Positions 24,486 through 43,480 of a DNA stretch of 45,936 nt are shown piece by piece. Below the pieces are notes generated by a model. The model worked only from the letters and a program-made list of their open reading frames with translations, did not search any database and had not been told where the DNA came from. Positions within the stretch are counted from its first letter, which is position 1, and each line of letters opens with the position of its first letter. The translations under genes and the position numbers were made by a program. The stretch comes from an uncultured Desulfobacteraceae bacterium (lineage in GTDB: Bacteria > Desulfobacterota > Desulfobacteria > Desulfobacterales > UBA5852), in the NCBI GenBank assembly GCA_913060875.1, contig CAJXSL010000024.1:1-45936 (forward strand). Reading direction: 5' to 3'.

Positions 24486-26213
24486 ATGCTGAGAAAAGAA
24501 CTACTTCAATTGCCCTACTACCGCTCGCTGGCATTGAACATGATGGCGACCATTATCGTCGTGTCTTTTATTCCGGTAATTCTGGTGGGCAGCACCATCT
24601 ATTTTAACCTCTACGCCTCTTATCGCGAAAAGGTCTATGCCCACCTTGAGGAACTGGTGGAAAAACACCGGCAGAAAATCGATGATTTTCTGGGAGACAA
24701 ACTTGCCGATATCCGCTTTCTGGCGAAAAATTTAGGCTATGCGAACCTGAGCGACGAAACGTTTCTACAGGACACCCTGGCCTCTTTGCAGCGCAACTAC
24801 CACTACGCATTCGTCGACCTTGGGGTGGTTAACGGCAGCGGACAGCAAGTCGCCTATGCGGGGCCCTTTAAACTTGCCGAGGCGGATTACGCTGACACGG
24901 ATTGGTTTCAGCAGGCCATGCAAAAGGCCTACGTGATCAGTGATGTCTTTCTCGGCCTGCGGCGTATGCCCCACTTTATTGTGGCCGTCAAAGGCCGCGT
25001 CAACGGAAAACCATGGATTTTACGCGCCACCATCGATTTCGCGATTTTTAACGATCTGGTGGAAAATATCCGGGTGGGGGAAACCGGATTTGCCTACATC
25101 CTGAACCGCAACGGTGAATTCCAGACCCACCCTCTGATCGATTTCATCCCGAGCAAGGGGTGCTACGGACAGCTTTTTGATTGCGACCGGGGAATGGACG
25201 ATCGGGTTTCCATTAGGGAATGGGAGGGGGATGACGGCAAGAAGAGCATCTATTTCACTGCATTGCTTAAAGATAAGGAATGGCTTCTGGTCTACCGCCA
25301 AGAACGCGCGGATGCATTCTCGGAGCTGCGGCGCGCCCAGGGGATTGCGGTGGTCATTTTTATCATCGGCGGCATCAGCATCATCATCATGGCATTTACG
25401 CTCTCCATCCGCCAGGTGGACCGTATCAAAGAGGCGGATCGGGGCAAAGAGATGATGAACCAGCAGATGATCGAGACGGGTAAATTGGCCAGTATCGGCG
25501 AACTGGCGGCCGGAATCGCGCACGAAATCAATAATCCGGTGGCGATCATGGTCGAGGAGGCCGGATGGATCCAGGATCTGCTTGAAGAAGAGGATTTTGA
25601 ACAAAGCAGCAACCTGGAGGAGCTCGAGCGGGCCCTCAAACAGATCAATACCCAAGGCAAGCGCTGCAAGGAAATTACGCACAAACTATTGAGTTTCGCC
25701 CGGAAAACAGATGCCCGCCTGCAGTCTTTTTCCATCAACGATCTCATCGAAGAAGTCATCGATTTGTCCGAGCAGCGCGCCAAATACGCCAAGGTGACCT
25801 TGACCACGCGACTGGATGAAGACTTGCCGGCCATCCAGGCCTCCCCGTCTGAAATGCAACAGGTGTTTCTTAACCTGATCAATAATGCCGTGGACGCTTT
25901 GGAGAAAAAGGGAGGGGCAATTACCGTCACTTCGCTCCGTAGGGATACGCAGGCCGTAATCGAGGTGCAAGACAACGGACCGGGGATTCCGCCCGCCAAT
26001 CTGGACCGGATATTCGATCCTTTTTATACCACCAAACCGGTGGGCAAAGGCACCGGCCTGGGATTGTCCATCTGCTACGGCATCATCAAAAAAATGGGCG
26101 GCGAAATCAGTGTGCAAAGTGACATGGATGAAGGGACCACCTTTACGATTGCGCTGCCGTTCCACAAAGAGGGGGAGGAGGAGAGACCAGCCGGTGGCTA
26201 TTCCTGTCGATAA
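24486..26213 (+). CDS. Cache-domain sensor histidine kinase (module B)
   Basis: A 575-aa membrane kinase. An N-terminal membrane helix (residues ~18-40) and a second one (~300-320) bracket an extracytoplasmic double-Cache sensor, recognised by FVDLGVVNGSGQQVAYAGPF, DWFQQAM, SDVFLGLRRMPHF and the later FAYILNRNGEFQTH. The kinase core follows: phospho-acceptor His346 in GIAHEINNP, N box NLINNAVDAL, DNGPGIP and GTGLGLS. Cache domains usually bind small organic acids or amino acids. The ATG at 24486 has AGGA 11 bp upstream. It is one of three paralogues in the window (33152, 41337) and is followed by three receiver genes. Confidence 0.9.
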   Translation: MLRKELLQLPYYRSLALNMMATIIVVSFIPVILVGSTIYFNLYASYREKVYAHLEELVEKHRQKIDDFLGDKLADIRFLAKNLGYANLSDETFLQDTLASLQRNYHYAFVDLGVVNGSGQQVAYAGPFKLAEADYADTDWFQQAMQKAYVISDVFLGLRRMPHFIVAVKGRVNGKPWILRATIDFAIFNDLVENIRVGETGFAYILNRNGEFQTHPLIDFIPSKGCYGQLFDCDRGMDDRVSIREWEGDDGKKSIYFTALLKDKEWLLVYRQERADAFSELRRAQGIAVVIFIIGGISIIIMAFTLSIRQVDRIKEADRGKEMMNQQMIETGKLASIGELAAGIAHEINNPVAIMVEEAGWIQDLLEEEDFEQSSNLEELERALKQINTQGKRCKEITHKLLSFARKTDARLQSFSINDLIEEVIDLSEQRAKYAKVTLTTRLDEDLPAIQASPSEMQQVFLNLINNAVDALEKKGGAITVTSLRRDTQAVIEVQDNGPGIPPANLDRIFDPFYTTKPVGKGTGLGLSICYGIIKKMGGEISVQSDMDEGTTFTIALPFHKEGEEERPAGGYSCR

Positions 26214-26246
26214 AAACCATTCGCAAACCGCTTAAGGAGAACCATC

Positions 26247-26696
26247 ATGAACGATCCGACTGTAATGAACGAACCAACCGTTTTGCTGGTGGATGATGAA
26301 GAGCCGTTTGTCGATACCATGACCAAACGGTTGAGCAAGCGCCATCTCGCTGTTTTGAAAGCCTACAGCGGTGAAGAGGCACTACTTGCCCTGAAAGAAG
26401 ACCACCACATCGATGTGGTCATCCTGGATGTAAAGATGCCGGGGATGGACGGCATCGAGACACTGAAAGCGATTCGCAAAGATTTTCCTCTGGTTGAAGT
26501 GATCATGCTGACTGGCCACGCAACAGTGGAAACCAGCATTGAGGGGATGCGCTTGGGGGCATTCGACTATTTGATGAAACCCAGCGATATGGACGTGCTG
26601 ATGGACAAGGTCAACGCTGCGACCCGTAAAAAACGTGAGCACGAAGACAAGATCCGCGAAGCACGGGTAAACGTTATCCTCAAGGCACGGCCCTGA
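26247..26696 (+). CDS. REC-only response regulator (module B, first)
   Basis: A 149-aa receiver with acceptor Asp61 in VILDVKMPGMDG, acidic pair Asp16-Asp17, MLTGHA and LMKPSD. It has no output domain; the last ~20 residues form a charged tail (EDKIREARVN). The first helix carries TKRLSKRH, also seen as KRLxKR in the receivers at 26869, 27245 and 43022. AAGGAG precedes the ATG. It lies 33 bp after the module B kinase and is its most likely phosphate acceptor. The N-terminus has a short internal repeat (NDPTVMNEPTV), so ATG 26265 is an alternative start. Confidence 0.9.
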   Translation: MNDPTVMNEPTVLLVDDEEPFVDTMTKRLSKRHLAVLKAYSGEEALLALKEDHHIDVVILDVKMPGMDGIETLKAIRKDFPLVEVIMLTGHATVETSIEGMRLGAFDYLMKPSDMDVLMDKVNAATRKKREHEDKIREARVNVILKARP

Positions 26697-26868
26697 TACG
26701 GCATGACTGGACAGGGACATGAATGCGGCATGCTCGAGGAGACGTGGGAAACGGAATGAACGGTCGCTGGCGATGGGGATGCGGCTATGGGCATGTACGG
26801 TGCCGGGTTGCCTTGATGCCGGGAGGTTTGGTGGATGAGGACGGGTAATCCGCGATGGAGGAGGCAAT

Positions 26869-27243
26869 ATGCCGAATGCCATTAAACTCTTGCTAGTGGA
26901 CGATGAAGTGGGGTTCGTCGACGTACTCAGCAAACGGCTGGCGAAACGCAACATGGCCGTGACGCCGGTCTACAGCGGAACCCAGGCGATTCAAACTTTG
27001 CGCAAACAGGATTTCGATGTGGCGGTTCTTGATTTGAAGCTGGAAGATATGGACGGTATCGAAATTCTCCGTATCTTCAAAAAGTTGGTACCGTCCATGC
27101 CGGTGATCATGCTGACCGGACACGGCTCGGAGCAGGCGGCGCGGGAAGGCATGGCCTGTGGTGCCTTCGACTACCTGACCAAACCCAGCGATCTTCAGGA
27201 TCTGGTTGCAAAGATCCAACAGGCTGTGCGCCAGGAGGCATAA
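26869..27243 (+). CDS. REC-only response regulator (module B, second)
   Basis: A minimal 124-aa receiver with acceptor Asp55 in VLDLKLEDMDG, Asp11-Asp12, MLTGHG and LTKPSD. Unlike its neighbours it ends right after the last helix, without the charged KIRxAR tail. The sequence around the acceptor (LKLEDMDG) departs from the KMPGMDG form. GGAGGAGGCAAT lies before the ATG. A 172-bp gap separates it from the previous receiver; I see no gene there. It may act as a phosphate sink or adaptor. Confidence 0.88.
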   Translation: MPNAIKLLLVDDEVGFVDVLSKRLAKRNMAVTPVYSGTQAIQTLRKQDFDVAVLDLKLEDMDGIEILRIFKKLVPSMPVIMLTGHGSEQAAREGMACGAFDYLTKPSDLQDLVAKIQQAVRQEA

Positions 27244-27244
27244 C

Positions 27245-27673
27245 ATGACCCAGATGCCCACCGTTCTTTTTGTCGATGATGAAGAGGATTATTTGAACAC
27301 CCTCATTAAACGGATGCGCAAACGGCAGGTGAATGCTTTCGGCGTTGGAAGTGGCGAAAAAGCGCTTGAACATTTGGCGTCCCATGCAACCGACGTCGTG
27401 GTGCTGGATGTGCGCATGCCGGGAATGGACGGCATCGAAACCCTGCGCAGGATCAAAGAGGTCGCGCCGCTTACGGAGGTGATCATGCTGACCGGTCACG
27501 CGAGCCTCGAGGTGGCCCGTGAAGGCATGGAACTCGGGGCCTTCGATTATTTGATGAAGCCGGTGGATATCGATGAGCTGTTATACAAAATGGAAGATGC
27601 CGCTCAAAAGAAAAATATTCAGGAGGAGAAGATCAAAACACTTGATGATTTGTTGACGAGCGATATCGCTTGA
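27245..27673 (+). CDS. REC-only response regulator (module B, third)
   Basis: A 142-aa receiver with acceptor Asp55 in VLDVRMPGMDG, Asp11-Asp12, MLTGHA and LMKPVD. It ends with a charged helix and EEKIKTLDDLL. The ATG at 27245 is separated by one base from the stop of the preceding receiver, and AGGAGG lies in the end of that gene, so the two are translationally coupled. It is the last gene before the palindromic element at 27709. Three receivers behind one kinase suggests branched phosphotransfer. Confidence 0.9.
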   Translation: MTQMPTVLFVDDEEDYLNTLIKRMRKRQVNAFGVGSGEKALEHLASHATDVVVLDVRMPGMDGIETLRRIKEVAPLTEVIMLTGHASLEVAREGMELGAFDYLMKPVDIDELLYKMEDAAQKKNIQEEKIKTLDDLLTSDIA

Positions 27674-27708
27674 ACTGGATAAGAAGAAAATGCGGGGATG
27701 GGATGAAT

Positions 27709-27852
27709 AGTGCCCATCCATAAATGGCATCTTTCGGCCCCTGGCGGCGTTCTCGCTCGTTTTCAATCCTCGAAATAGCGGGCTATTCCTCCGGTTGAAA
27801 ACGCGCTCGGGCCTTGCCAGGAACCAAAATCTACTATTTATGGACGGACACT
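27709..27852. mobile_element. MITE-like palindromic element (144 bp)
   Basis: Terminal inverted repeats AGTGCCCATCCATAAAT (27709-27725) and its complement at 27836-27852 match at 15 of 17 positions. Inner arms also pair: CCTGGC (27740) with GCCAGG (27816), CGTTTTCAA (27758) with TTGAAAACG (27795), and AATAGC (27774) with GCTATT (27782) around a 2-base tip. The whole element can fold as one long imperfect hairpin. TA flanks both ends (27708-27709 and 27852-27853), as for Tc1/IS630-derived MITEs. No transposase is encoded. It separates the receiver genes from the TauE gene. Confidence 0.75.
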
Positions 27853-27882: not shown

Positions 27883-29175
27883 ATGAACTTTTTCCGACAA
27901 TGGGGCCGGTTCATGATGGCGGGAACACGTGCCTTTGCCGAATGGGAATGCCGCAACGCGGAAACGATTCTAAACGATCGCAAAAGACTGCTGTTGATAG
28001 GGCTTTTGCTATTGCCGGTTCTTCTGGGCGGGGTCGTTTTTGCTGATCAGATCGGCAGTGCCTTGCCGGATCTTCTGGGGGGGAAAAAGGCCTACAGCCC
28101 GGCCTTTTACAGTACCGGTATTTTTATCGTGTCAATTCTCATCGGATTGGGCGCCGGGCTGATTACCGGATGCATTGGGGCCGGAGGGGGCTTTATCATT
28201 GCCCCTGCTCTGATGAGTGCCGGAATCAAGGGCATCCTGGCGGTCGGCACGGACTTGTTCCACATTTTTGCCAAGGCCATCATGGGGAGTGTCATCCATC
28301 GCAAATTGGGAAATGTCTCCGTACCATTGGCTGCCGTATTTCTACTCGGGGCCATCATCGGGGCAACGGTTGGGGGCGTGATCAACCGGGTTTTGTATGA
28401 GATCAATCCTGTGTTGAGCGACGCCTTCATTACCACTGTCTACGCGGGTATGCTCGGATTTTTGGGGATATACGCCATGATCGACTATCTCAACGCCCGC
28501 AAAGGAAGCTCCGCCGACGCGGGTGCTCACGGCGCCAAGGATGAGGGCGCCGAGATGGGCAGTCTGCCTAAAAAAATTCAGGGGTTGAAGATCCCGCCGG
28601 TGATCCGTTTCGACCACGATCTGGTTCCCGGAGGGCGCGGCATTTCCTGGGTGTTTCTCGTTCTCAGCGGCGCCCTGGTCGGTCTTGCCGCCGGTATTAT
28701 GGGGGTTGGCGGTGGATTCCTGACGTTTCCCATCTTCGTCTATGTGCTGGGGGTTTCCTCCATGACCACGGTGGGTACCGATATTTTCCAGATCGTGTTT
28801 ACCGCCGGATATGCCGCCATCAGCCAGTATGCGATATATGGCTTTATTTTCTACACCCTGGCAATGGGTATGCTCCTGGGGTCTCTGCTGGGTATCCAGG
28901 TGGGAGCGATGGTGACAAAAGTCGTCAAGGGCATCACCATCCGCGGGTTTTATGCCATGGCCGTACTGGCGGGCTTCGTCAACCGGATTTTCGCTCTTCC
29001 AGCCAAACTGGGTGAGATGGGGGTGCTGCCTATATCCCCCGGATTGGGTAAAACCCTGGATACCATCGGTGTCTGGGCCTTTTTTATCGTCATATCCGGT
29101 TTCGGAATATGGGTGATTGGGACCTTTCTGACCAATATCAACAGGTTGAAAGGAGAAGAGGAGGCGCATTCATGA
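27883..29175 (+). CDS. TauE/SafE family sulfite/anion permease
   Basis: A 430-aa polytopic membrane protein of the TauE/SafE (DUF81) family, which exports sulfite and small organosulfur anions. The two homologous halves each carry the family glycine-rich motif: LITGCIGAGGGFIIAPAL (~residues 93-110) and AAGIMGVGGGFLTFPIFV (~268-285). An amphipathic ~35-residue N-terminus precedes the first helix, and a soluble loop (~residues 205-245) separates the halves. GGGGAGGAG precedes the ATG. Its TGA overlaps the ATG of the next gene. The true substrate is unknown; in a sulfur-metabolising organism sulfite or a sulfonate is plausible. Confidence 0.85.
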   Translation: MNFFRQWGRFMMAGTRAFAEWECRNAETILNDRKRLLLIGLLLLPVLLGGVVFADQIGSALPDLLGGKKAYSPAFYSTGIFIVSILIGLGAGLITGCIGAGGGFIIAPALMSAGIKGILAVGTDLFHIFAKAIMGSVIHRKLGNVSVPLAAVFLLGAIIGATVGGVINRVLYEINPVLSDAFITTVYAGMLGFLGIYAMIDYLNARKGSSADAGAHGAKDEGAEMGSLPKKIQGLKIPPVIRFDHDLVPGGRGISWVFLVLSGALVGLAAGIMGVGGGFLTFPIFVYVLGVSSMTTVGTDIFQIVFTAGYAAISQYAIYGFIFYTLAMGMLLGSLLGIQVGAMVTKVVKGITIRGFYAMAVLAGFVNRIFALPAKLGEMGVLPISPGLGKTLDTIGVWAFFIVISGFGIWVIGTFLTNINRLKGEEEAHS

Positions 29176-29858
29176 TTGCAAAAAAAGGTGAATTCTACAG
29201 CGGCGCCGGCATGATGGGGGTTTTTGTGGTAGTCTTGGTCGTGATTTTTATGCCGATTTTCAATGGGCATAATGGTCTCAATTATCTCGATGCGCTTTAT
29301 AATTCCATTTCCAAAGGCTCCGCCTACTATATACCCCACATGCAGGAGGAGGCCCAACCTTTCGCTGGGACCGCATTTAAGGTTGATCTTGTTATGGCGG
29401 ATGAAACCCAGGCACGACAAAGCTCGCTTCTATTTCAGAAGGGGGGTGCCCTTGTAAACGTAAATGGACCGAATCTTGCCGTTGATGGCGATCTGGGAAA
29501 AATACTAGCTGTTTGTCTTGCCGATGCCGACCTCATGTATCACAACAACGGCAGCGATGTGGCCGCCAAGTACGGCTACGGCGAGCGGCAGGTGCTATAC
29601 AACTGGTGGGCCGCCAATAACGCCATGGAAAATGATTTGAAGCGTCAGAAACAGTTCAAAGCGGCCAAGATTGTGGCCACGGTCAATAAAAAGGCGGTGG
29701 AAACAGCATACAACTACTACCAGATCGAGGCTCAAAAAATATCGGAGCGGTATGGCATTGTCACTTTCTCTCTGATTTTCTACGTGGTCTATACGCTCTG
29801 GTACGGATTTGCCATCATGTTTCTTTTTGAAGGATGGGGTTTGCGCCTCGAGCATTGA
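29172..29858 (+). CDS. Conserved membrane protein of unknown function, coupled to the TauE gene
   Basis: A 228-aa protein I do not recognise by name. One membrane helix lies near the N-terminus (MMGVFVVVLVVIFMPIF) and a second near the C-terminus (FSLIFYVVYTLWYGFAIMFLF); the ~150 residues between are soluble and probably extracytoplasmic, with aromatic and charged helices (YGERQVLYNWWAANNAM). The start overlaps the stop of the TauE gene by 4 bp, so it is likely an accessory subunit or partner of that permease. GGAGAAGAGGAG lies before the ATG. The terminator at 29939 ends this unit. Confidence 0.75.
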   Translation: MIAKKGEFYSGAGMMGVFVVVLVVIFMPIFNGHNGLNYLDALYNSISKGSAYYIPHMQEEAQPFAGTAFKVDLVMADETQARQSSLLFQKGGALVNVNGPNLAVDGDLGKILAVCLADADLMYHNNGSDVAAKYGYGERQVLYNWWAANNAMENDLKRQKQFKAAKIVATVNKKAVETAYNYYQIEAQKISERYGIVTFSLIFYVVYTLWYGFAIMFLFEGWGLRLEH

Positions 29859-30183: not shown

Positions 30184-32808
30184 ATGATTTTTATTAAACG
30201 GATTGCCGATAAAATATTGAAAACCACGGCGGATAGGGAAAGCCCTGATGTGGATCACCTCCGGCTGGTTTTTCGGGAGCGTTACGCCCATTTCAAGCAA
30301 TTGATCCGTGCCAACAACAAGGCACTTGAAGTCATGGGAGAAATCGAGTCCGTTCTTCAAGGGGATCGGCCTTTTGGCATGGCCTTTGTGCGCGCCTGCG
30401 CCACAACCGCCTCGGTGAGCGTCATGCATATGGTGGAGAACCTGCAACGGCTCGCACCCGGTAAATATCTTTCGCTTTCCGAACGTCTCAATGCCATCAG
30501 CCGCCAGATCGATGCGACGCTTCACTCGGGAAGAGAGCATCGGGATCGCCGACTTGTGATCGTCTTGAAAGACATCGATATAGACATGGTCGATCTTGTG
30601 GGCAGCAAGATGGCCAACCTCGGTGAAATCAAAAACAAACTGGGATTGGCCGTGCCAGACGGCTTTGTGGTTACGGCCAGCGCCTATGAGCACTTTATCG
30701 ACCACAATGATCTCAAGATCGAAATCAACCGTTTGATGCAGTCGGCGGATTTGAACGACATGGAGAACCTCTATCGCCTGCATGCCCGGCTGAACAACCT
30801 GATTGTCCAGGCCGATATCCCCCCGGAGCTTGCGACTGCGATTCGCGAAGCCTGGCATGGCATGGCCGTCAGCGGCGGCCGGGACATGACCGCCGCCATG
30901 CGCAGCAGTGCCCTTGGCGAGGATGAGAAGGGCAGTTCTTTTGCGGGATTGCACCACTCCGAGCTGAATGTAAGTGGGGATCATCTTCTCGATGCCTACA
31001 AGCAAATCCTGGCCAGCAAGTACAGTCTCCCGGCCATAACCTATCGACTCAACAAAGGGTTCCGGGATGACGACATTGCCATGTGCGTGGGGTGCCTGAC
31101 CATGCTGGATCCCATGGCCGGAGGGGTGATGTATTCGCGTAACCCGTTTGATCGCCAGGACGCCAGCGTTGTGATCAATGCGGCCTGGGGACTTCCCAAG
31201 GCGGTGGTGGACGGCTCGGTGGACGGGGATTTTTTTACGGTCGATCGCGAAGCGCCCATGACAATTCAAACACGGGAAATACGCGTGAAGTCCCGTAAAT
31301 ATGCGTGCTATCCGGAAGAAGGCGTCTGCCGTCTGGATATCACCGATGACGGCCTGCAGCGACAGGCCTCCCTCACCGATGCCCAGGTGCTGGCGCTTTC
31401 GGCCATGGCGATCCAGCTGGAAGATCACTACGGCGCCCCCCTGGATATCGAATGGGCTATCGATCAGCAGGGTGCCATTGTTATCCTTCAATGCCGGCCC
31501 CTGCAACAAATGGACCCGGCCAGGCAAACGACACTATCGTATGCCAGGCCGGCATCCAACGACTGCATTCTCGCCGAAGGCGGGACCACCGCCTGCCCGG
31601 GGATCGGCGTCGGCCTTGTGCATCGCGTGGACAGTGGCCTGGACATGCTGTCATTTCCCCAAGGCGCAATTCTGCTGACCCGTGAAGCCCATCCACGATG
31701 GGCCCCGCTGCTGACCCGTGCCGCCGGCATTGTCACCGGACACGGCAGTTTCACGGGACACTTGGCCAATGTGGCCCGGGAGTTCGCCCGACCCGCCCTT
31801 TTTGGTCTTTCGGGGGCGCTTGACAAACTGCGCCCAGGCACGCTCATCACCCTGGACGCAGGCGGTCGGGTTGTCTACAAGGGTCGGATAGAGGCGCTGC
31901 TTGCGTCGGACAAACCCAAGACTAGCTTAATGACCGGAAGCCCCATCCATGGAACCTTAACAGCCGTCAGTCGTTTGATTGTGCCTTTGAATTTACTGGA
32001 TCCGGATGGCCCCGGGTTCACCCCGTCCCATTGTCGGACGCTGCATGATATTACCCGCTTCGTTCATGAAAAATCGGTTCACGAGATGTTTCACTTTGGC
32101 CGGGATCATCATTTCAACGAACGGTCAAGCAAGCAGCTTTACTATCATGCCCCCATGCAATGGTGGATTCTGAATTTGGATGATGGTTTCATCGATGAAG
32201 TGAAGGGCAAGTACATTCGACTCGACAATATCGCCTCAATACCCATGCGGGCGTTCTGGGACGGTTTTGCCGCCATCCCCTGGGATGGCCCGCCCGCCCT
32301 TGACGGAAAGGGGCTGATGGCCGTCATGTTTCAATCCACCGCCAACCCGGCCCTGGCACCCGGGGTACGCTCCCGCTATGCGGAGCGCAACTATTTTATG
32401 ATTTCTAAAAACTACTGCAATCTCAACTCCCGTCTGGGCTACCATTTTTCGACGCTTGAAGCGCTGGTCAGCGAGCGCACTTCTGAAAATTACATCGGGT
32501 TCCAATTCAAAGGCGGTGCGGCCGATGACCGCCGACGTCGGAAACGCATCCACTTTATCGCGGACTTGTTGGAAACGCACAATTTCCGGGTGCAGGTAAA
32601 GGAGGACAACCTGATGGCCCGGATCGAAGGGTTTGAAATCGGTTACATGCTGGACCGGTTGAAGATCCTGGGTTATCTGACCCTGCATACCCGCCAGTTG
32701 GACATGATCATGACGAATCCTGCCGCGGTCGAGCATTACCGTCAAAAAATTCAAAAAGATCTCCGAAACATGCTTGGTAAGGCGGGGGATGACGCTGCTC
32801 CCCTCTAA
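30184..32808 (+). CDS. PEP/pyruvate-binding phosphotransfer protein with non-canonical C-terminus
   Basis: An 874-aa protein related to PEP synthase and pyruvate phosphate dikinase. Residues 1-120 are a helical extension. Residues ~125-440 form the nucleotide/pyruvate-binding domain (DLVGSKMANLGE, AMRSSALGEDEKGSSFAGLH, AGGVMYSRNPFD, LDIEWAID). Residues ~490-580 are the swivelling phosphohistidine domain, with His526 in GSFTGHLANVAREFARP at the catalytic position. The expected PEP-binding TIM barrel is absent. Instead residues ~590-874 are an unrelated alpha/beta region (HFGRDHHF, NYFMISKNYCNL, YIGFQFKGGAADDRRRRKR). It may phosphorylate something other than pyruvate. The start at 30184 has no clear Shine-Dalgarno site. 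Confidence 0.8.
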   Translation: MIFIKRIADKILKTTADRESPDVDHLRLVFRERYAHFKQLIRANNKALEVMGEIESVLQGDRPFGMAFVRACATTASVSVMHMVENLQRLAPGKYLSLSERLNAISRQIDATLHSGREHRDRRLVIVLKDIDIDMVDLVGSKMANLGEIKNKLGLAVPDGFVVTASAYEHFIDHNDLKIEINRLMQSADLNDMENLYRLHARLNNLIVQADIPPELATAIREAWHGMAVSGGRDMTAAMRSSALGEDEKGSSFAGLHHSELNVSGDHLLDAYKQILASKYSLPAITYRLNKGFRDDDIAMCVGCLTMLDPMAGGVMYSRNPFDRQDASVVINAAWGLPKAVVDGSVDGDFFTVDREAPMTIQTREIRVKSRKYACYPEEGVCRLDITDDGLQRQASLTDAQVLALSAMAIQLEDHYGAPLDIEWAIDQQGAIVILQCRPLQQMDPARQTTLSYARPASNDCILAEGGTTACPGIGVGLVHRVDSGLDMLSFPQGAILLTREAHPRWAPLLTRAAGIVTGHGSFTGHLANVAREFARPALFGLSGALDKLRPGTLITLDAGGRVVYKGRIEALLASDKPKTSLMTGSPIHGTLTAVSRLIVPLNLLDPDGPGFTPSHCRTLHDITRFVHEKSVHEMFHFGRDHHFNERSSKQLYYHAPMQWWILNLDDGFIDEVKGKYIRLDNIASIPMRAFWDGFAAIPWDGPPALDGKGLMAVMFQSTANPALAPGVRSRYAERNYFMISKNYCNLNSRLGYHFSTLEALVSERTSENYIGFQFKGGAADDRRRRKRIHFIADLLETHNFRVQVKEDNLMARIEGFEIGYMLDRLKILGYLTLHTRQLDMIMTNPAAVEHYRQKIQKDLRNMLGKAGDDAAPL

Positions 32809-32929: not shown

Positions 32930-32946
32930 TGTAAAAAAAAACGACA
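32930..32946 (+). promoter_or_regulatory. Upstream activator element, copy 3
   Basis: TGTAAAAAAAAACGACA keeps the TGTAAAAAAA and GACA ends of copies 1 and 2 and differs in the three bases between. It lies 94 bp before the sigma-54 promoter at 33041. Confidence 0.6.
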
Positions 32947-33040: not shown

Positions 33041-33056
33041 TGGCATATATATTGCT
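33041..33056 (+). promoter_or_regulatory. Sigma-54 promoter of the module C kinase operon
   Basis: TGGCATATATATTGCT matches the -24/-12 consensus with GG-N10-GC spacing. Transcription should start near 33067, ~85 bp before the GTG start of the kinase. The gap 32809-33151 holds only this promoter and its upstream element. Confidence 0.8.
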
Positions 33057-34944: not shown

Positions 34945-35391
34945 ATGGAAACGATGCAACTTATGCTTGTGGACGACGAGGAACGATTTCTTTCGACGAC
35001 AAAGAAACTCCTTGAACGTGAGGGGTATAGCGTTCTGACCGCTACCGATGGTTCCCAGGCACTGGAAATGTTGCGTCGGAAAAGGGTTCATGTCGTCATC
35101 TTGGATGTCAAAATGCCCGGAATGGATGGCAATGAAATACTTGTCCAGATCAAGCGCCAGTATCCCATGACAGAAGTCATCATGCTGACGGGTCATGCCA
35201 CTGTCGCGTCGGCCGTGGACGGGCTGAAGTCCGGGGCCAGCGATTATTTGATGAAACCCATTGATGTCCATGATCTCATTGCCAAGGCCGAAGAAGCCTT
35301 TTCCCGGCGGCAAGGGCTGGAGACGAAAATACGGGTGGCGCGCATGCGCCATTTGATGAAGTCACCGCGTGAGATCATTCAGGAAAACTAA
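34945..35391 (+). CDS. REC-only response regulator (module C)
   Basis: A 148-aa receiver with acceptor Asp54 in VILDVKMPGMDG, Asp10-Asp11, MLTGHA and LMKPID, then a charged tail (TKIRVARMRHLMKSP) like those at 26247 and 43022. Its first helix reads TTKKLLERE, a variant shared with the REC-CBS protein at 38150. GGGAGAAGGGT precedes the ATG. It lies 95 bp after the module C kinase and 54 bp before the SLC13 gene. Without an output domain it probably works by protein contact or as an intermediate in a relay. Confidence 0.9.
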   Translation: METMQLMLVDDEERFLSTTKKLLEREGYSVLTATDGSQALEMLRRKRVHVVILDVKMPGMDGNEILVQIKRQYPMTEVIMLTGHATVASAVDGLKSGASDYLMKPIDVHDLIAKAEEAFSRRQGLETKIRVARMRHLMKSPREIIQEN

Positions 35392-37538: not shown

Positions 37539-38036
37539 ATGATCCGGTATTATCTGCACATGGTCATTCAGGTCCTGAAAGGACCCCGCCTGTTTTTCGA
37601 CACCCATGCCGTCGAGCTCAGGATGACGCGTCCCATTGGCGCTCTGGCCATATCCAGTGCGGTATTTGTCGCGGCCAGCCTTTTGCGCCAACTGCCGGCG
37701 GACCCGCTGACCTGCGGCGGCGTGCTTTTCATCAATGCCATGGGCATGGTGTTGATAACATCATTGGCAGGATATGCCGTCATGCGAATCATGATGGGAA
37801 ATTGTGTCCCCTTTCCATCCTTCTTCAGCATCTATGCGTTATCGAGCAGTGCGGTTCTTTTGATTGCCTGGATACCCTTGGGGGCCTGGCTCACGGAACC
37901 CTATAAATGGTGGCTGATTGGTACTGGAATGACCCGCTCGCTGGGCTTCAGCAAGGGCAATGCGTTTCTGGTTATCCTGGCCTCCATTTTCGGGGTGGCG
38001 GCGTTCTTCAACCTTGTGCTGCATTCCTGTCTATGA
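37539..38036 (+). CDS. Yip1-like membrane protein
   Basis: A 165-aa protein with about five membrane helices and an N-terminal amphipathic segment (VLKGPRLFFDTH) typical of bacterial Yip1-domain (DUF1282-like) proteins, whose role is unknown. No catalytic motif is visible. The ATG at 37539 has no strong Shine-Dalgarno site but directly follows the small membrane protein gene. It probably belongs to the same transcript as the SLC13 gene and may be a membrane partner. The family assignment is moderate. Confidence 0.65.
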   Translation: MIRYYLHMVIQVLKGPRLFFDTHAVELRMTRPIGALAISSAVFVAASLLRQLPADPLTCGGVLFINAMGMVLITSLAGYAVMRIMMGNCVPFPSFFSIYALSSSAVLLIAWIPLGAWLTEPYKWWLIGTGMTRSLGFSKGNAFLVILASIFGVAAFFNLVLHSCL

Positions 38037-38149
38037 ATGCGGGACGCGGCATGTGTGGCGCAGAACACGGGCGGCTGTTTGGTCCGGCCCCCAAAAAAAA
38101 CGTCCGTCTGCGAACGATCAAAGCGTAAACCTACAGGGAGATGCCTTCA

Positions 38150-39052
38150 ATGCGTGAAACCATAAAAGTGCTCATGGTCGACGACGAGAAACAATTTCGT
38201 ACGACCACCGAAAAATTGCTCAACCGCAAAGGGTTTCAAACCATCCTGGCGGCCAGCGGAGAAGAAGCCACCGCGAAGCTTTCCGAACAACCCGATGTCG
38301 TTGTCCTGGACATAAAAATGGGAGGCATGGACGGTCACCAGACCCTGAGGGAAATAAAAGCCCAATTTCCCGATATGCCGGTCATCATGCTCACCGGACA
38401 TGGGGCCCTGCGGTCGGCCAAAGAGGCTCTTGGCGAAGGGGCCTATGACTATCTCACAAAGCCTTGCGATATTGATCTTCTGGCGTCGAAAATCAGGGAC
38501 GCCTATCATCAGCGCCACCTTGACGACAGCTTCGAGGAGCGGCGGGTCATGGGTGCCATGGTGCCCCTCCAAGAGTACACCACCATGAACGGCGACACCA
38601 CCATTCGTGAAGCCGTCGCCACCCTCAAGGAGTCTTTCGCCCTGAAGACCGCCACCAGCCGTATTATGGAGACCGGTCATCGTTCCATTCTGGTGATGGA
38701 TAACCAGGAAGATTTGGAAGGCATCTTAACCATTTGCGATTTGCTCGAAATGGCGATGCCGTCCTATCTGAAGGCTCCTAAACCCTCTACCGCCGACAGC
38801 ATTCAATACTCGCCGATGTTTTGGAAAAACATGTTCAGCCAGGGGATTTTGGCCAATGCCGAGACAAAAATTCGGGATGTCATGTCGCCACCGCCGCCGG
38901 TCATTGACGGTACGGCAAGCATCATGGAAGCCGCTTACACGATGGTTAACGGCAACGCCCGCCGTTTGGTGGTGGCGTTGTCCGGACGGATTGCGGGGGT
39001 GATCCGGGAACAGGATTTATTTTTCGTGATCGAAAGGATCCTGCGTGCCTGA
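38150..39052 (+). CDS. Receiver-CBS pair response regulator
   Basis: A 300-aa protein with a receiver (residues 1-120, acceptor Asp54 in VLDIKMGGMDG, Asp11-Asp12, MLTGHG, LTKPCD) followed by two CBS domains (about residues 140-205 and 240-298; TTIREAVATLKESF, GHRSILVMDNQ, IRDVMSPPPPVIDG, ARRLVVAL). CBS pairs bind adenosyl nucleotides, so output may depend on both phosphorylation and energy charge. ATG 38150 is chosen because AGGGAG lies 9 bp upstream; ATG 38141 touches that site. It is the third receiver of module C, between the Yip1-like gene and a degenerate receiver. Confidence 0.85.
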   Translation: MRETIKVLMVDDEKQFRTTTEKLLNRKGFQTILAASGEEATAKLSEQPDVVVLDIKMGGMDGHQTLREIKAQFPDMPVIMLTGHGALRSAKEALGEGAYDYLTKPCDIDLLASKIRDAYHQRHLDDSFEERRVMGAMVPLQEYTTMNGDTTIREAVATLKESFALKTATSRIMETGHRSILVMDNQEDLEGILTICDLLEMAMPSYLKAPKPSTADSIQYSPMFWKNMFSQGILANAETKIRDVMSPPPPVIDGTASIMEAAYTMVNGNARRLVVALSGRIAGVIREQDLFFVIERILRA

Positions 39053-39082: not shown

Positions 39083-39502
39083 ATGAGCGCGCCTTTCACT
39101 ATATTGATTGCGGACCGTAATTCGCATGTGCGCATGTTTTTAATGCGTGAATTGATGGCCGAAGGCTATCGGGTAAAACTGGCGGCCACGGGTGCCAACG
39201 TCCTGACGATGGTCTATGCGCGCGAGGAGATTGATCTGCTGATTCTGGACCCGGACCTGCCGGGCTGTGAAATGGATGCCATGCTCAAGGTGCTGGGGGA
39301 TAGGATCCCGCCGTTGCCCGTGGTTCTTCACACCCATCGGCGCTCAGAAGAGGCCCGTTGCCCAGAGCATGACGGGTGGCTTGTCGTCATCGAAAAGACC
39401 GGAGACAGCGTGGAGCGTATCAAAGAAACCGTCGGCCGAATGCTCCAGTATTCTTGTGCCTCGGCGGCTGCCGCCCACCAAGCCGAGGATTGGGATCCAT
39501 AA
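39083..39502 (+). CDS. Degenerate receiver-domain protein
   Basis: A 139-aa receiver-like fold with a degraded active site. Asp56 (LILDPDLPG) is in the acceptor position, but the usual acidic pair is reduced to IADRN, the switch region reads VVLHTHRRS and no KP motif is present. It may not be phosphorylated and could instead act as a constitutive protein-binding module. It ends in an Ala-rich tail. GGAGG precedes the ATG by 5 bp, and it lies 30 bp after the REC-CBS gene. The gap to the next SLC13 gene (39605) shows nothing else. Confidence 0.75.
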   Translation: MSAPFTILIADRNSHVRMFLMRELMAEGYRVKLAATGANVLTMVYAREEIDLLILDPDLPGCEMDAMLKVLGDRIPPLPVVLHTHRRSEEARCPEHDGWLVVIEKTGDSVERIKETVGRMLQYSCASAAAAHQAEDWDP

Positions 39503-39604: not shown

Positions 39605-41296
39605 ATGTCACATCAAATGTCGATGGAGGAGAACGTGACCCCGCATATGTCGGCTGCCAAGTCGACAGCCCAGGGATGGTCATGGAAGAGCCGGCCGGGA
39701 TATAAGCCGCTATTACTTCTCGGTGCTGCATTGGTTTTTGTGGCAATTGTCATTTTGCCGCCGCCGCAAAGCATGCTTGACATGGTCAGCCAGGCGGATC
39801 CCCCTGGATATAAACTGGCCCGGGGCTGCGATACCATCACCGACTCGGTGAACAAGAAACTGCGTCCCAAAGCCTTCCAAGCGGCCAATGAAGAGACACC
39901 ATCAACCAGTGATTTTCATCATGAACCTTTGCTGACCTCACGGGAGGTGGCGCAGCTGGCCAAAATAATGGTCGGCATCCTTTTTTTAGCGGCATTTTTA
40001 TGGGGAACCGAATCCTTACCGCTGGGGGCCACGGATATTCTGGTGGGGGTGATGCTGTACCTGTTTTCAATCCTGCCCATCAACGAGATTTCCCAGGCCT
40101 ATATGAAAGATGCCGTTTTTTTCATTTTCGGCATTTTGGCGGTGGCTGTGGGGGTAGCCAAAACGGGCCTTGATAAGCGGATCGGTCTCATCCTGTTAAG
40201 TCGAATCAGCAGTGCCAAAGCCTTTGCCTTCTGCTTCCTGCCCATGCTGGCGATGTCGGCGGGGTTTTTATCCGAGCACGCCCTGGTGGCTTTGTTGATC
40301 CCCGTATTGATGGGAATCTACAAGGTGACCTGTAAAATGCACGGTGTTCAAAAAGACCGGGCACTGGCCATTTTCCTTTTGCTGGGGGTTTGCTTTGCCG
40401 CCAACCACGGGGGGCCGGGTTCACCGGCGGCCGGGGGGCGGAATGCCATTATGGTCGGTTATTTGATGGAGTACGGTTTCCCGATTTCGTTTCTCGACTG
40501 GATGAAGATCGGTATGCCGTTCGTCCCGCTCATGGCCGTCGTGATCGGAGCCTATATGTATATCCGGTGCAAACCCAAATTCGTCGTCCAGGGCGTCAAC
40601 CCCAGTGAAGTGGTCAAGGCCGAGGTGGCCCGGATGCCAAAGTTCGGCGGCAAGGAAGCGATGATGGCCGTTATTCTGGTTGCACTGGTCGTCGCCTGGA
40701 TCGTCCTTGGCGAGCATGCCGGTTTAGGGGGGCCGACACTCTATGCCGTGATGGCCATGTTCATCTGCCGCATTATTACCTGGGAGGACGTACAGGAAGG
40801 TGTGGCCTTTGACGTCGTCGGACTGTACGCCGCGGCCTGCGCCATGGGCGTCGGCCTGAAGTTTACGGGCGGCGCTTTGTGGTTGGCGGATTCTTTCGTC
40901 AACCTGCTGCCCGATGTGCTGACCCAGGGGGACGGCCTCGTCGTCGGTGTCAGTTTGCTCACCGGCACCATGACCAATTTTATGAGTGATGGCGCCACGG
41001 TGGCCGCACTGGGGCCCATTGTGCTTCCCATGGCGACCCTGGCCAATGTCAGCGTTTGGAAGGTTGGGTTGATTACTTCTTTTTCCTCTTCATTTGCCAA
41101 TTTTCTGGTGGTGGGTACCCCCAACAATGCCATCTGTTTCGGCATGGGGCGCGATCCGGAAACCGGCGAGCGACTGTTGGATGTGATGGATTTCGTCAAA
41201 TACGGGGTTCCGGTGACGCTCCTGGCGTGGGTCGTTCTCTGGCTCTGGGGTGTGTTCGGATACTGGCGGCTATTGGTGTGGCCGGTGGGGGGATGA
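39605..41296 (+). CDS. SLC13/DASS family anion:Na+ symporter (second)
   Basis: A 563-aa divalent-anion:sodium symporter family member. It has a ~35-residue hydrophilic N-terminus and, as in the transporter at 35445, a ~70-residue extracytoplasmic segment after the first helix (LLLLGAALVFVAIVIL). Substrate/ion-site regions are NHGGPGSPAAGGRNAIM, LTGTMTNFMSDGATVAALG and VGTPNNAICFGMG. GGAGG lies 5 bp before the ATG. It follows the receiver genes of module C and precedes the module D kinase by 40 bp, so it may be paired with either. The substrate is not determined. Confidence 0.86.
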   Translation: MSHQMSMEENVTPHMSAAKSTAQGWSWKSRPGYKPLLLLGAALVFVAIVILPPPQSMLDMVSQADPPGYKLARGCDTITDSVNKKLRPKAFQAANEETPSTSDFHHEPLLTSREVAQLAKIMVGILFLAAFLWGTESLPLGATDILVGVMLYLFSILPINEISQAYMKDAVFFIFGILAVAVGVAKTGLDKRIGLILLSRISSAKAFAFCFLPMLAMSAGFLSEHALVALLIPVLMGIYKVTCKMHGVQKDRALAIFLLLGVCFAANHGGPGSPAAGGRNAIMVGYLMEYGFPISFLDWMKIGMPFVPLMAVVIGAYMYIRCKPKFVVQGVNPSEVVKAEVARMPKFGGKEAMMAVILVALVVAWIVLGEHAGLGGPTLYAVMAMFICRIITWEDVQEGVAFDVVGLYAAACAMGVGLKFTGGALWLADSFVNLLPDVLTQGDGLVVGVSLLTGTMTNFMSDGATVAALGPIVLPMATLANVSVWKVGLITSFSSSFANFLVVGTPNNAICFGMGRDPETGERLLDVMDFVKYGVPVTLLAWVVLWLWGVFGYWRLLVWPVGG

Positions 41297-41336
41297 TGTC
41301 TTTCCGCAGCAAGAATTCATTGGAACGGAGCACCTT

Positions 41337-42998
41337 ATGAAGGAGCGGCTGTATCGCAGTCTCCAGCAGAAAAGCATCGCCCTGACCCTGGTGGTGTCGC
41401 TGGCCCCGTTGCTGATCCTGGGGGCGACCCTATATCACCAGTTTGAAAATACCTGTCGTGAGAAAACCAGGGAGCAAATCAGTTATCGGGCCCAGGCCCA
41501 GGCCGAAGCGATCGACCTTTTTTTGAAGGAGCGTACCGCCATCCTGAATGCCATGGCCGATACCCATACCTTTCAGCACATGATCGACACCCAAAACCTG
41601 ACGCGTATTTTCGAAGTGATGAATGCGCGGGCCGGCGCTTTTGTCGATTTGGGCATCATCGACAATACCGGCACCCACAGAGCCTATGTGGGCCCCTACG
41701 ATCTCCGTGGCCGCAATTACATCGATCAACCCTGGTTCAATGAAGTCATGATCAAGGGGCACTACAAGAGCGATGTCTATATGGGGTTTCGCCAGCAGCC
41801 CCATTTCATCATTGCGGTCAGACGACATGAAAACCAGCAGGCCTGGATCCTGCGGGCGACCATCGATCCCAATCGCTTGGAGGAAATTATACGATCGGCC
41901 CGGATCGGTCGCACCGGAGATGCCTACCTGGTCAACCGGCAGGGGGTTTTCCAGACCCGATCGCGTTTTGAAGGAGCCGTCCTCAGCAAGGCCAACCTCG
42001 ACACACGGCAGTTCGGTGGGCGTATTACCGTCATCGAAATGAAGGATCACACCGGAGAGGACTGCCTTTATGCCGGCAGCTGGCTAAATGACAACAAGTG
42101 GCTGCTCGTGATCAATCAACAGCCCTTGGAACTCCTTTCGCGCTTGTTTGCCTTGCGCCAGATGGAAATGGTCATCATTACCCTGGGCGTTTTGGGGATC
42201 GTGGCCACGACCATTTTCACGACGCGCCTGGTTATCAATCGTCTGAAAAGGACGGATCTGGAAATGATCGAGCTCAACGCCCAACTGGTCCAGTCGGACA
42301 AACTCGCGGCATTGGGGAAAATGGCGGCCGGCGTGGCTCATGAGATCAACAATCCATTGGCGGTCATTCTTCAGAAAACAGGCTGGATGGAGGACCTCCT
42401 GGAAGAGGAGGATTTTCAGAACTGTGAAAACCTGGACGAATTCCAGAAGTCTATCGCCAAAATCGAAGAACACGTTGAACGGGCGCGTAAAGTGGTCCAT
42501 AATATGCTTGGATATGCCCGGAGAATGGAACCGCGGCAGGAAGATGTGGATGTGAATGATACCATTCAACAGACCATCACACTTTTGGAAAACCATGCCC
42601 GGATCAACAATATCGATATCCAGATCGACCTGGCCGATTCGATTCCGATCATCGCCAGCGATCAGGCGCAACTGCAGCAGGTTTTTCTGAATTTGCTCAA
42701 CAATGCCATCGATGCCATCGGCAGCAACGGTTCCATCGATGTGGTCAGCCTTCGCGAGGATGACCGTATCGTGGTCAGAATCAAGGATGACGGCCCCGGG
42801 CTCAGCGATGAGATGATCCGAAAAATATTCGATCCGTTTTATACGACCAAGGAGCCCGGCAAGGGGACCGGCCTGGGACTTTGGGTGAGCCACAGCATTA
42901 TGGCCAAAATGGGTGGCAACATCCACGTCAAAAACAATCCCGACAGGGGCGCCATTTTTACAGTGGAGATCCCGATCGTCATTCCGGAGAAGAAATAA
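41337..42998 (+). CDS. Cache-domain sensor histidine kinase (module D)
   Basis: A 553-aa paralogue of 24486 and 33152. Membrane helices near residues ~17-36 and ~275-300 bracket a double-Cache sensor with FVDLGIIDNTGTHRAYVGPY, PWFNEVM, SDVYMGFRQQPHFIIAV and AYLVNRQGVFQTR. The kinase core has phospho-acceptor His335 in GVAHEINNP, N box NLLNNAIDAI, DDGPGLS and GTGLGLW. ATG 41337 has GGAG 6 bp upstream. Unlike the other two Cache kinases it has no sigma-54 promoter or TGTAAAAAAA element in front, so it is probably transcribed with the upstream transporter. A receiver gene follows after 23 bp. Confidence 0.9.
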   Translation: MKERLYRSLQQKSIALTLVVSLAPLLILGATLYHQFENTCREKTREQISYRAQAQAEAIDLFLKERTAILNAMADTHTFQHMIDTQNLTRIFEVMNARAGAFVDLGIIDNTGTHRAYVGPYDLRGRNYIDQPWFNEVMIKGHYKSDVYMGFRQQPHFIIAVRRHENQQAWILRATIDPNRLEEIIRSARIGRTGDAYLVNRQGVFQTRSRFEGAVLSKANLDTRQFGGRITVIEMKDHTGEDCLYAGSWLNDNKWLLVINQQPLELLSRLFALRQMEMVIITLGVLGIVATTIFTTRLVINRLKRTDLEMIELNAQLVQSDKLAALGKMAAGVAHEINNPLAVILQKTGWMEDLLEEEDFQNCENLDEFQKSIAKIEEHVERARKVVHNMLGYARRMEPRQEDVDVNDTIQQTITLLENHARINNIDIQIDLADSIPIIASDQAQLQQVFLNLLNNAIDAIGSNGSIDVVSLREDDRIVVRIKDDGPGLSDEMIRKIFDPFYTTKEPGKGTGLGLWVSHSIMAKMGGNIHVKNNPDRGAIFTVEIPIVIPEKK

Positions 42999-43021
42999 AC
43001 GACCATCAAGGGGAGGACTCA

Positions 43022-43480
43022 ATGGATTATTTCAGCATCTTGGTTGTCGACGATGAAGTCGATTTTCTCGAAACGCTGGTCAAACGACTCCAAAAACGCA
43101 ATATCGATACCGTCGGCGTCACCAGTGGTGAGAAAGCACTGGAAACCATGGTCAACAAACGCTTCGACGTGGTCATCCTGGATATAAAGATGCCGGGAGG
43201 GATGGACGGCATCGAAACCCTGCGTGAAATCAAACGGCATCAGCCCTTGGCGGAAGTGATTCTGCTAACGGGGCACGGCTCGGTGGAAACCAGCATCGAA
43301 GGCATGAAAATGGGGGCTTTCGATTACCTCCTGAAGCCGATTAAATTGGAAGATCTGATGGTCAAGCTGGGTGAGGCCTTTGAAAAGAAAGATCTCCAGG
43401 AACAAAAAATCAGGAAGGCCCGCATCAAAGAGCTGATACGCTTTCCTGGACGTGTGTTTCAACAGGAAAAGGAAGAATAG
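43022..43480 (+). CDS. REC-only response regulator (module D)
   Basis: A 152-aa receiver with acceptor Asp54 in VILDIKMPGGMDG (one extra Gly), Asp10-Asp11, LLTGHG and LLKPIK. It has a charged tail EQKIRKARIKELIRFPGR of the same type as 26247 and 34945. The helix motif LVKRLQKRN links it to the module B receivers. GGGAGG lies 5 bp before the ATG. It is the last gene before the terminator at 43513 and most likely the partner of the module D kinase. Confidence 0.9.
   Translation: MDYFSILVVDDEVDFLETLVKRLQKRNIDTVGVTSGEKALETMVNKRFDVVILDIKMPGGMDGIETLREIKRHQPLAEVILLTGHGSVETSIEGMKMGAFDYLLKPIKLEDLMVKLGEAFEKKDLQEQKIRKARIKELIRFPGRVFQQEKEE

Follow-up and report, generated by a model that had tools for sequence, protein, structure and literature searches.

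Introduction

What do receiver proteins that lack a DNA-binding output do when they are encoded between sensor kinases and anion transporters? This question is raised by a 45,936-nucleotide stretch of DNA from an uncultured Desulfobacteraceae bacterium (contig CAJXSL010000024.1), the whole of which we call the window. It carries three dCache sensor kinases (HK1, HK2 and HK3), a series of receivers, and transporter genes of the TauE, DASS (SLC13) and LctP families. A sequence-only reading had taken positions 24486-43480 for a triplicated module that may adjust anion uptake or export by post-translational means. Here, we report that the array is a member of a cluster type described in 2025, as that type is set out in the main text of the description (PMC11887813). 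New here are sigma-54 promoter matches with a shared element, which appear to switch the units of the array on together. Dissimilatory sulfate reduction begins with the uptake of sulfate. The text of a 2018 review asks for more molecular work on sulfate transporters (PMC5840216), and in the main text of the 2025 study the control scheme put forward is one that "may operate" (PMC11887813).

Results

Sigma-54 promoter matches share an upstream element

We divide the array into three units (Table 1). Unit A comprises HK1, three receivers, a TauE transporter, protein X and a PPDK_N protein; unit B comprises HK2, REC2, the transporter DASS1, a Yip-like protein, a receiver-CBS protein and a pseudo-receiver; and unit C comprises DASS2, HK3 and REC3. 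The HK0-22713 kinase/activator pair is also counted as a member of the array. Its sigma-54 activator, 22713-24149, includes a receiver and sits directly upstream of the interval considered earlier, outside it.

The sigma-54 pattern TGGCAYNNNNNTTGCW has three exact matches in the window, against 0.12 expected from dinucleotide shuffles, and these sites (21050, 24426 and 33041) fall in the gaps before HK0, HK1 and HK2. An enhancer-like element, TGTAAAAAAANNNGACA (TGT-A7-N3-GACA, with TGT-N11-ACA half-sites), begins at 20934, 24317 and 32930, that is, 99, 92 and 94 nt 5′ of the respective sigma-54 sites. Four exact copies of this element exist in the 5.88-Mb genome, three of them in the window; its reversed control gives none, even with one mismatch. 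The HK0, HK1 and HK2 units each start, then, behind a predicted sigma-54 promoter with the shared element at 92-99 nt. Sigma-70 promoter matches across the region number 14, against 15.8 expected. Outside the window, a one-mismatch copy of the element on contig C4 precedes a different kinase-activator pair, and the fourth exact copy (C1:1190647; L218:1501-1517) lies upstream of a GAF-type sigma-54 activator, the domain being judged by eye.

A profile built from the seven family sensor domains of this genome was searched in 395 genomes of the phylum: 164 of them have a match at E 1e-10 or better, and 114 are strong carriers (E 1e-50 or better). Two sets of loci were then compared. Series A holds 80 stretches hand-picked from the top of the hit list, with the closest relatives over-represented; together with this genome it gives 121 kinases in 56 genomes. 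Series B holds 80 DASS1 homologues from named genomes, retrieved with one DASS1 protein as query and dominated by close relatives. Some contigs, judged by their length, are shared by both series and were removed only in the motif-promoter spacing count and the relaxed-site count. In the survey loci, a slightly relaxed element occurs at 63 sites, against two for the reversed pattern (duplicates removed), each of these two having a sigma-54 match 101 nt away. Allowing one mismatch gives 126 sites and 13 reversed ones, shared contigs counted twice. Where motif and promoter lie within 300 nt of each other, 36 of the 46 pairs are spaced by 84-104 nt, whereas a uniform spread would yield 3.2.

A composite search (relaxed element, 80-110 nt, promoter), blind to kinases, gave 33 matches in 25 of the 395 genomes and none with the reversed pattern. 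Of these 25 genomes, 23 are strong kinase carriers (7.2 expected). Thirty composite loci were fetched, two from this genome, and 24 lead within ~1.5 kb into genes matching profiles of the system: family kinases, receivers, TauE, Usp, CBS, PPDK_N and other kinases. Among the 24, the Usp match of L231 is weak, and L243 (HK0 of the window) and L249 match the general kinase profile only. The remaining six do not: L228, L244, L245 and L246 lead into no recognised genes, and L229 (DASS-like by eye) and L235 are cut at a contig end. Two composite genomes, G135 and G191, are not strong kinase carriers, and the G191 match stands before a pseudo-receiver and a PPDK_N gene.

In both surveys together, promoter sites of 7/8 or better are found near the start of 40 of 234 family kinases, versus 32 of 1240 unassigned genes (shared contigs counted twice). 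Usp (12/50) and CBS (4/16) genes are also rich in such sites, DASS genes (7/171) and lone receivers (24/421) less so. The reverse-strand control gives 0 versus 16/121 in series A and 1 versus 24/113 in series B.

The activator 22713 has an AAA+ domain with GAFTGA and a Fis-type helix-turn-helix, and the element precedes the operon common to HK0 and 22713. Orthologues of at least 59% identity occur in 21 other survey loci, with the SRPTL recognition region conserved, and nine of these 21 loci hold the element. Judged from sequence, 22713 is likely to be the regulator of the array; orthologue distribution and neighbourhood fit are suggestive of its binding to the element. The earlier idea that transport is controlled post-translationally finds no direct support. 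With sigma-54 promoter matches, a shared element and an adjacent activator, at least one layer of control is probably transcriptional.

Kinases, receivers and transporters are linked across genomes

Linkage was counted from a profile-guided gene table, for the 75 of 121 kinases with at least 5 kb on both sides; HK3 of the window dropped out because the contig end is too near. Within 5 kb, 60 of these 75 kinases have a DASS, TauE, SulP or CitMHS-type gene. By type, and with some kinases having two, the counts are DASS 32, TauE 28, SulP 6, CitMHS-type 1 and LctP 0, the last partly because HK3 fell outside the 75. A single receiver lies within 5 kb of 73 of the 75, and in 100 of the 121 a receiver on the same strand follows the kinase by 200 bp or less. 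Seven of the 56 genomes show no kinase-transporter link within 8 kb. Approached from the transporter, a family kinase lies within 5 kb of 67 of the 80 DASS1 homologues, and of 61 of the 63 that have at least 3 kb upstream.

Within this genome, six of the seven family kinases have such a transporter within ~5 kb. In comparison, none of 20 other kinase loci has a DASS, TauE, SulP, LctP or CitMHS-type gene within ~5 kb; these are the 22 next-best kinase matches less HK0 and C4:215739, which lie in or near family arrays, and one of the stretches is cut by a contig end. Homologous kinases elsewhere are mostly linked to transporters, contrary to the condition under which the sequence-only reading would have fallen, and the kinase-receiver-transporter linkage is real and old. 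A Desulfosarcina bin (L153) has the order kinase-receiver-DASS-Yip-receiver.CBS-DASS-kinase-receiver, close to that of the window. In G033:C56 the order is DASS-kinase-receiver-kinase-receiver-DASS-Yip-receiver.CBS, and G387:C141 is alike, with extra receivers. The kinase-receiver-DASS unit also occurs in bins that bear the labels Candidatus Abyssobacteria (L184), Phycisphaerae (L186) and Acidobacteria (L190); if these bins are clean, this points to transfer between phyla.

The family keeps company with dsrA, which is present at or near the family cut-off in 107 of the 114 strong kinase carriers; 83 more genomes have dsrA without the kinase. This association is strong but takes no account of kinship (30 families have both dsrA and kinase), and two of the 190 dsrA genomes (G235 and G335) are probably partial sub-cut-off matches, which would leave 188 genomes and 106 of 114 carriers. 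Five of the seven carriers that lack dsrA have a completeness of 80% or less; the exceptions are G043 and G297. In G297, given as 100% complete, there are kinases and a composite match ahead of TauE and a pseudo-receiver-like gene, but dsrA is matched only very weakly (E 4.9e-5). Transport of sulfur or organic anions, as proposed earlier, fits both the transporter families and the co-occurrence with dsrA.

The three kinases belong to separate subfamilies

HK1, HK2 and HK3 each match dCache_1, HisKA and HATPase_c in Pfam. Their dCache_1 scores are 79.9, 48.7 and 61.4 bits (curated cut-off 45), and the HisKA match of HK2 (33152) is under its curated cut-off (22.2 versus 26.9 bits). The sequence-only reading had picked out a sensor signature (DLG, AY.GP, WF, SDV..G.R..PHF) and an AHEINNP box. 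Across 121 family sensors, most positions of the former are 85-100% conserved, with a lower value for the A of AY, and the latter is invariant across the seven family kinases of this genome. The paralogous kinases and the TauE, SLC13 (two) and lactate permease genes that it had recognised are likewise recovered by Pfam.

The word "triplicated" fares less well. In a quick tree of 121 kinases, HK1, HK2 and HK3 fall into three separate supported groups, each with relatives in other genomes; we therefore reject a recent tandem triplication and regard the kinases as old paralogues of three subfamilies. The genome has seven full-length family members, three of them in the window. A fourth, on contig C7, belongs to a second copy of unit A, with kinase, receivers, TauE (78% identical), X and PPDK_N. 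Two more adjoin SulP sulfate permeases (contigs C12 and C1), and the seventh (contig C4) has a receiver and no transporter within 5 kb. On the kinase tree, the linked transporter changes type 16 times, versus 27.3 times when shuffled (none of 200 shuffles as low), in a count that leaves out the 53 of 121 kinases without a transporter label. Beside the C4 kinase lies a 752-residue protein with a histone-deacetylase-like domain (L033:476-2734); L040 has a relative of it beside a family kinase.

Receivers carry no DNA-binding output

Seven receivers lie in the interval considered earlier (Pfam), where they had been described as receiver-only. That description holds for the single receivers and fails for 38141, which carries two CBS domains; 39083 is a weak pseudo-receiver (34.2 bits versus a cut-off of 30.2) that lacks the acid pair. 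The further claim that none has a DNA-binding output stands: Pfam shows no DNA-binding domain in any receiver of the interval, and the receiver of 38141 is overlapped by a FleQ match that falls under the cut-off. ADRN..VR.FL is the signature of the small family to which the pseudo-receiver belongs, and a strict form of it picks out 7 of the 533 survey receivers; proteins resembling the pseudo-receiver lie just 3′ of the composite element in L232, L233, L239, L247 and L256.

A receiver starts 250 bp or less downstream of 102 of the 121 kinases, and the first one was used for each. Pfam recognises Response_reg in every one of them, and a DNA-binding output domain, be it winged helix, Trans_reg_C or another, in none. 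Other matches are weak: PDE8A_N in 12, OKR_DC_1_N in three, and FleQ, BMFP, CoA_binding_2, PRO8NT and VpsR in one each. No variation is seen among the 102 at the phosphorylation residues D16, D17, D61 and K111, and a short C-terminal tail is conserved. In both surveys together, 183 of 191 such downstream receivers are under 210 residues; one of the eight longer ones is REC2 of the window, whose predicted start is overlong. When kinases and receivers were compared between genomes, the best-matching kinase and the best-matching receiver were partners in 1608 of 1994 non-independent comparisons; chance would give ~805. Each dCache kinase thus tends, by these matches, to be co-inherited with its adjacent receiver.

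Transporters and accessory proteins

The transporters of the region belong to TauE (27883), Na_sulph_symp (35445 and 39605) and Lactate_perm (43830) in Pfam. DASS2-like proteins (69-73% identical) lie directly upstream of HK3-type kinases on the same strand in G331, G184, G033 and G273 (29-246 bp), and 2.7 kb upstream in G132. No DASS2-like protein was found in this place for six of the 11 other HK3-type stretches; some of these six lie at contig ends, and in G387:C141 and G368:C198 the place is taken by a DASS that overlaps the predicted kinase start. Because of these upstream neighbours, DASS2-HK3-REC3 seems a likelier unit than HK3 with the lactate permease. The linkage to lactate permease drawn earlier is weak: across the stretches of both surveys, LctP was matched by the window's own protein alone, with a profile built from this single protein. 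We judge the permease an unlikely partner of HK3, from this result and from a terminator-like hairpin between the two, which is weak. The permease has a 93% identical paralogue at C22:70041, which is not at any of the seven family kinase places.

Among kinase-linked DASS proteins, 35 of 49 in series A and 91 of 100 in series B have an added N-terminal helix and a loop of at least 40 residues. No receiver-transporter fusion was seen, and the survey holds no DASS longer than 720 or TauE longer than 520 residues. Protein X lies near 18 of the 75 kinases with full flanks, a PPDK_N protein within 5 kb of 25 and a Yip1-like protein near seven. The PPDK_N and mobile-domain protein might be a phosphotransferase for another partner. 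A Na+/H+ antiporter-like gene at 19045 has no support as an array member, series A having no match to it outside this locus. Beside the SulP clusters of this genome lie 216- and 220-residue proteins (L034:10263-10913 and L035:8301-8963) whose only match is to HisKA, under cut-off; with an H-box and no ATPase match, they resemble a phosphotransfer intermediate. A cytidylate-kinase-like domain fused to a receiver also adjoins these SulP permeases (L034:13758-14984 and L035:10851-12068).

Sensor fold

An AlphaFold2 model of the HK3 sensor, built from 65 sequences, has the dCache fold (mean pLDDT 92, pTM 0.80). Conserved residues D104, Y117, W133, F134, S145, R152, H156, R173 and D177 all lie within residues 100-181, the first Cache module by sequence order. 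Ligands of dCache domains usually bind in the first of the two modules. Solved structures gave no close relative from which a ligand might be taken.

Table 1. Features of the array and its flanks, in order along the window
Feature	Position	Strand	Basis or remark
Enhancer-like element TGTAAAAAAATCTGACA	20934..20950	+	99 nt 5′ of sigma-54 site, HK0/activator unit; one of four exact genome copies
Sigma-54 (-24/-12) promoter-like site before HK0/activator	21050..21065	+	Exact consensus match
HK0, histidine kinase, 4HB_MCP-type sensor	21137..22708	+	Pfam; likely partner of activator 22713
Sigma-54 activator: receiver, Sigma54_activat, HTH_8	22713..24149	+	Domain matches; GAFTGA in translation; candidate array regulator
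Enhancer-like element TGTAAAAAAACCTGACA before HK1	24317..24333	+	Exact copy
Sigma-54 promoter-like site before HK1	24426..24441	+	Exact consensus match
HK1, dCache_1 sensor kinase, unit A	24486..26213	+	Pfam, family tree
REC1a, single receiver	26247..26696	+	Pfam; included in 102-receiver scan
REC1b, single receiver	26869..27243	+	Pfam
REC1c, single receiver	27245..27673	+	Pfam
TauE/SafE (TSUP) transporter, unit A	27883..29175	+	Pfam
Protein X, unit A	29172..29858	+	Two hydropathy-predicted membrane helices flanking a ~165-residue loop; no Pfam family
PPDK_N and PEP-utilizers mobile-domain protein, unit A	30184..32808	+	Pfam; no match to the phosphoenolpyruvate-binding barrel
Enhancer-like element TGTAAAAAAAAACGACA before HK2	32930..32946	+	Exact copy
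Sigma-54 promoter-like site before HK2	33041..33056	+	Exact consensus match
HK2, dCache_1 sensor kinase, unit B	33152..34849	+	Pfam, family tree
REC2, single receiver, unit B	34945..35391	+	Pfam
DASS1 (SLC13/Na_sulph_symp), unit B	35445..37298	+	Extra N-terminal helix and ~133-residue loop, inferred extracytoplasmic
Yip1-like membrane protein, unit B	37539..38036	+	Pfam match under curated cut-off
Receiver with two CBS domains, unit B	38141..39052	+	Pfam
Pseudo-receiver, unit B	39083..39502	+	Acidic pair replaced, ADRN signature
DASS2 (SLC13/Na_sulph_symp), transporter of unit C	39605..41296	+	Pfam, neighbourhood comparison
HK3, dCache_1 sensor kinase, unit C	41337..42998	+	Pfam, family tree, AlphaFold2 sensor model
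REC3, single receiver, unit C	43022..43480	+	Pfam
Terminator-like hairpin with T run 3′ of REC3	43537..43553	+	Consensus match only; 34 such in stretch versus 23.6 expected
L-lactate permease (Lactate_perm)	43830..45545	+	Pfam; probably outside array

Discussion

We think it reasonably probable that 22713 and sigma-54 switch the units on, that the kinases phosphorylate their neighbouring receivers, and that the receivers act by contact or as carriers. On this proposal, 22713 would bind the shared element and switch on the HK0, HK1 and HK2 units together via sigma-54, its own unit included. An external anion, plausibly sulfate, would then cause each dCache kinase to phosphorylate the adjacent receiver. 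Because the receivers have no output domain, contact with other proteins is one way in which they may act, and carrying or absorbing phosphate another; possible targets are the neighbouring transporter, the CBS or pseudo-receiver proteins, and the HK0-22713 pathway. The receiver-CBS protein may add an adenine-nucleotide or energy input, a role read from the layout and also proposed in the main text of the 2025 study (PMC11887813). More tentatively, and with some doubt, we suggest that the array belongs to a conserved sigma-54 regulon of the Desulfobacterota, in which 22713 orthologues would act from a TGT-A6/7-N-GACA enhancer ~95 nt before the promoter to form one sulfate-uptake circuit. Such a regulon would take in dCache kinases, output-less receivers (one of them a pseudo-receiver), DASS, TSUP, CBS, Usp and PPDK_N genes. 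Transcription would set which kinase-transporter units exist, and the receivers would tune the units by contact.

Several observations weigh against these proposals. With one mismatch allowed, the sigma-54 pattern occurs five times in the window, no more than chance (4.35 expected). The element stands at 84-104 nt in only 23 of 174 strong sigma-54 matches of the survey loci, and the strict composite is found in only 25 of the 395 genomes though 114 carry the kinases; hence other regulators or diverged sites must serve many of these units. The element also occurs in 4 of 23 loci with more distant activators, and several sigma-54 activators of D. vulgaris have TGT/ACA half-sites 9, 11 or 12 bp apart, according to the main text of the regulome study (PMC4641369). 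The pairing of kinase and transporter is not strict, in that the 20 kinases of the HK1 group are linked to TauE in 10 cases and to DASS in seven, with three unlabelled. With regard to sulfate, the TSUP and DASS families also carry other anions, and the nearest solved folds of the HK3 sensor are mixed among the 50 matches listed (uric acid/purine, C4-dicarboxylate/carboxylate, pyruvate and amino-acid sensors, at 9-18% identity), so that no ligand is readable from the fold. The main text of PMC11887813 describes DASS transporters as constitutively abundant across substrates. As for expression, section 24 of PMC5840216 has HRM2_38230 and HRM2_38300 highly expressed at low sulfate in D. autotrophicum, and section 16 of the same text states the opposite for HRM2_38300.

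In the sequence-only reading, phosphorylated single receivers would bind the transporters and adjust their activity, with little transcriptional control. The invariant phosphorylation residues and conserved tail of the 102 receivers, their lack of output domains and their place between kinase and transporter all suit this account, which we nonetheless hold to be unlikely as a whole, with sigma-54 promoter matches and an enhancer-like element before the units and no receiver-transporter fusion seen in the survey. Direct receiver-to-transporter control is possible as the last step only, since 0 of 102 first receivers match an output domain. That same count tells against the published scheme, in whose main text external sulfate is the cue for the kinases, and WalR-type DNA-binding regulators, as their targets, control expression of the transporters (PMC11887813). 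The cluster type is the same, with Cache kinases, DASS and SulP variants and CBS proteins, and our independent survey agrees on linkage; however, no adjacent receiver matches a DNA-binding output, 183 of 191 are under 210 residues, and the DNA-binding regulator nearby is of the sigma-54 type. We regard the WalR-type scheme as very improbable for this array.

It is also conceivable that the transporter is itself a co-sensor, presenting its extra N-terminal segment to the Cache sensor, so that the receivers relay flux rather than concentration. DctA acts as such a co-sensor for DcuS. The added helix and loop of many kinase-linked DASS proteins would fit, as would the tracking of transporter type with kinase clade (16 versus 27.3 changes). 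On the other hand, unlinked comparisons are few (five in series A, none with the loop), 15 of 17 unlinked proteins in series B have the loop (some on short contigs), and the membrane side of the loop was taken from charge and hydropathy only; we consider co-sensing rather unlikely. A change of ligand is the remaining alternative, whereby the array would respond to organic anions (carboxylates, sulfonates, lactate) and have no specific role with sulfate. Sensors of similar dCache fold bind carboxylates and pyruvate, TauE and DASS proteins carry varied anions, and a lactate permease lies next door. Yet 107 of 114 strong carriers have dsrA, sister kinases adjoin SulP sulfate permeases, no other LctP occurs in the survey stretches, and, in the parts of the proteomic and expression papers that deal with them, cluster DASS proteins are treated as sulfate importers (PMC11887813, PMC5840216). 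The main text of the former also suggests sulfate as a common signal. Given the dsrA company, the SulP sister clusters and these published reports, the array most plausibly controls uptake of a sulfate-type anion in a dissimilatory sulfate reducer, with external sulfate as a plausible signal; a purely organic repertoire strikes us as doubtful.

The layered scheme that we prefer, with 22713 and sigma-54 above the kinases and receivers, resembles several known systems in part. The HK3 sensor shares the dCache fold with DctB and KinD, at 14-16% identity only, and its family has its own conserved pattern and receiver-only partners. DctB and KinD have a two-helix membrane topology, as the window kinase does. 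For the PrsK/PrsR pair of PEP-CTERM systems, the main text reports a 17-nt activator site ending in TTTACA upstream of sigma-54 promoters, similar to the window; the average spacer there is 62.8 nt, versus ~95 here, and the targets are PEP-CTERM genes (PMC1569441). The sigma-54 regulome of D. vulgaris, published in 2015, comes close in other respects (PMC4641369). Its main text has sigma-54 activators controlling TSUP-family operons (DVU0110/DVUA0057; TSUP operon DVU0132-0133) and three motif groups with TGT/ACA half-sites, like the window element, but names no dCache kinase/receiver array or DASS genes. Among the open-access papers searched, we found no mention of sigma-54 control of DASS/dCache clusters, and the main text of a 2025 sigma-54 survey is without the word sulfate (PMC12316311).

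The nearest relative is the DASS-type sulfate transporter/two-component cluster of Desulfosarcina variabilis 3be13, reported with related clusters in 26 species (PMC11887813). As in the main text of that study, the window brings together DASS genes, several two-component genes and CBS proteins (38141-39052); the Cache sensor kinases have a common residue pattern, and a sister SulP cluster has the same kinases. Unlike the WalR type (receiver plus winged helix) stated there, the receivers beside the window kinases have no output domain, and, unlike the PhoR/PhoB pair to which that text draws an analogy, no OmpR/PhoB-type DNA-binding regulator lies beside them. We take the missing output as a misfit of the description and no reason to exclude the window from the cluster type. 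In the main text, sigma-54 is mentioned once, for catabolic modules, and TauE is not mentioned. The window thus gives the published cluster type a concrete candidate regulatory element, with three predicted promoters, one enhancer-like sequence and one adjacent activator. It speaks against the WalR-type assumption and shifts the question to the role of the receiver-only proteins, and with the element as a search motif, further sulfate reducers that have this circuit may be recognised from sequence.

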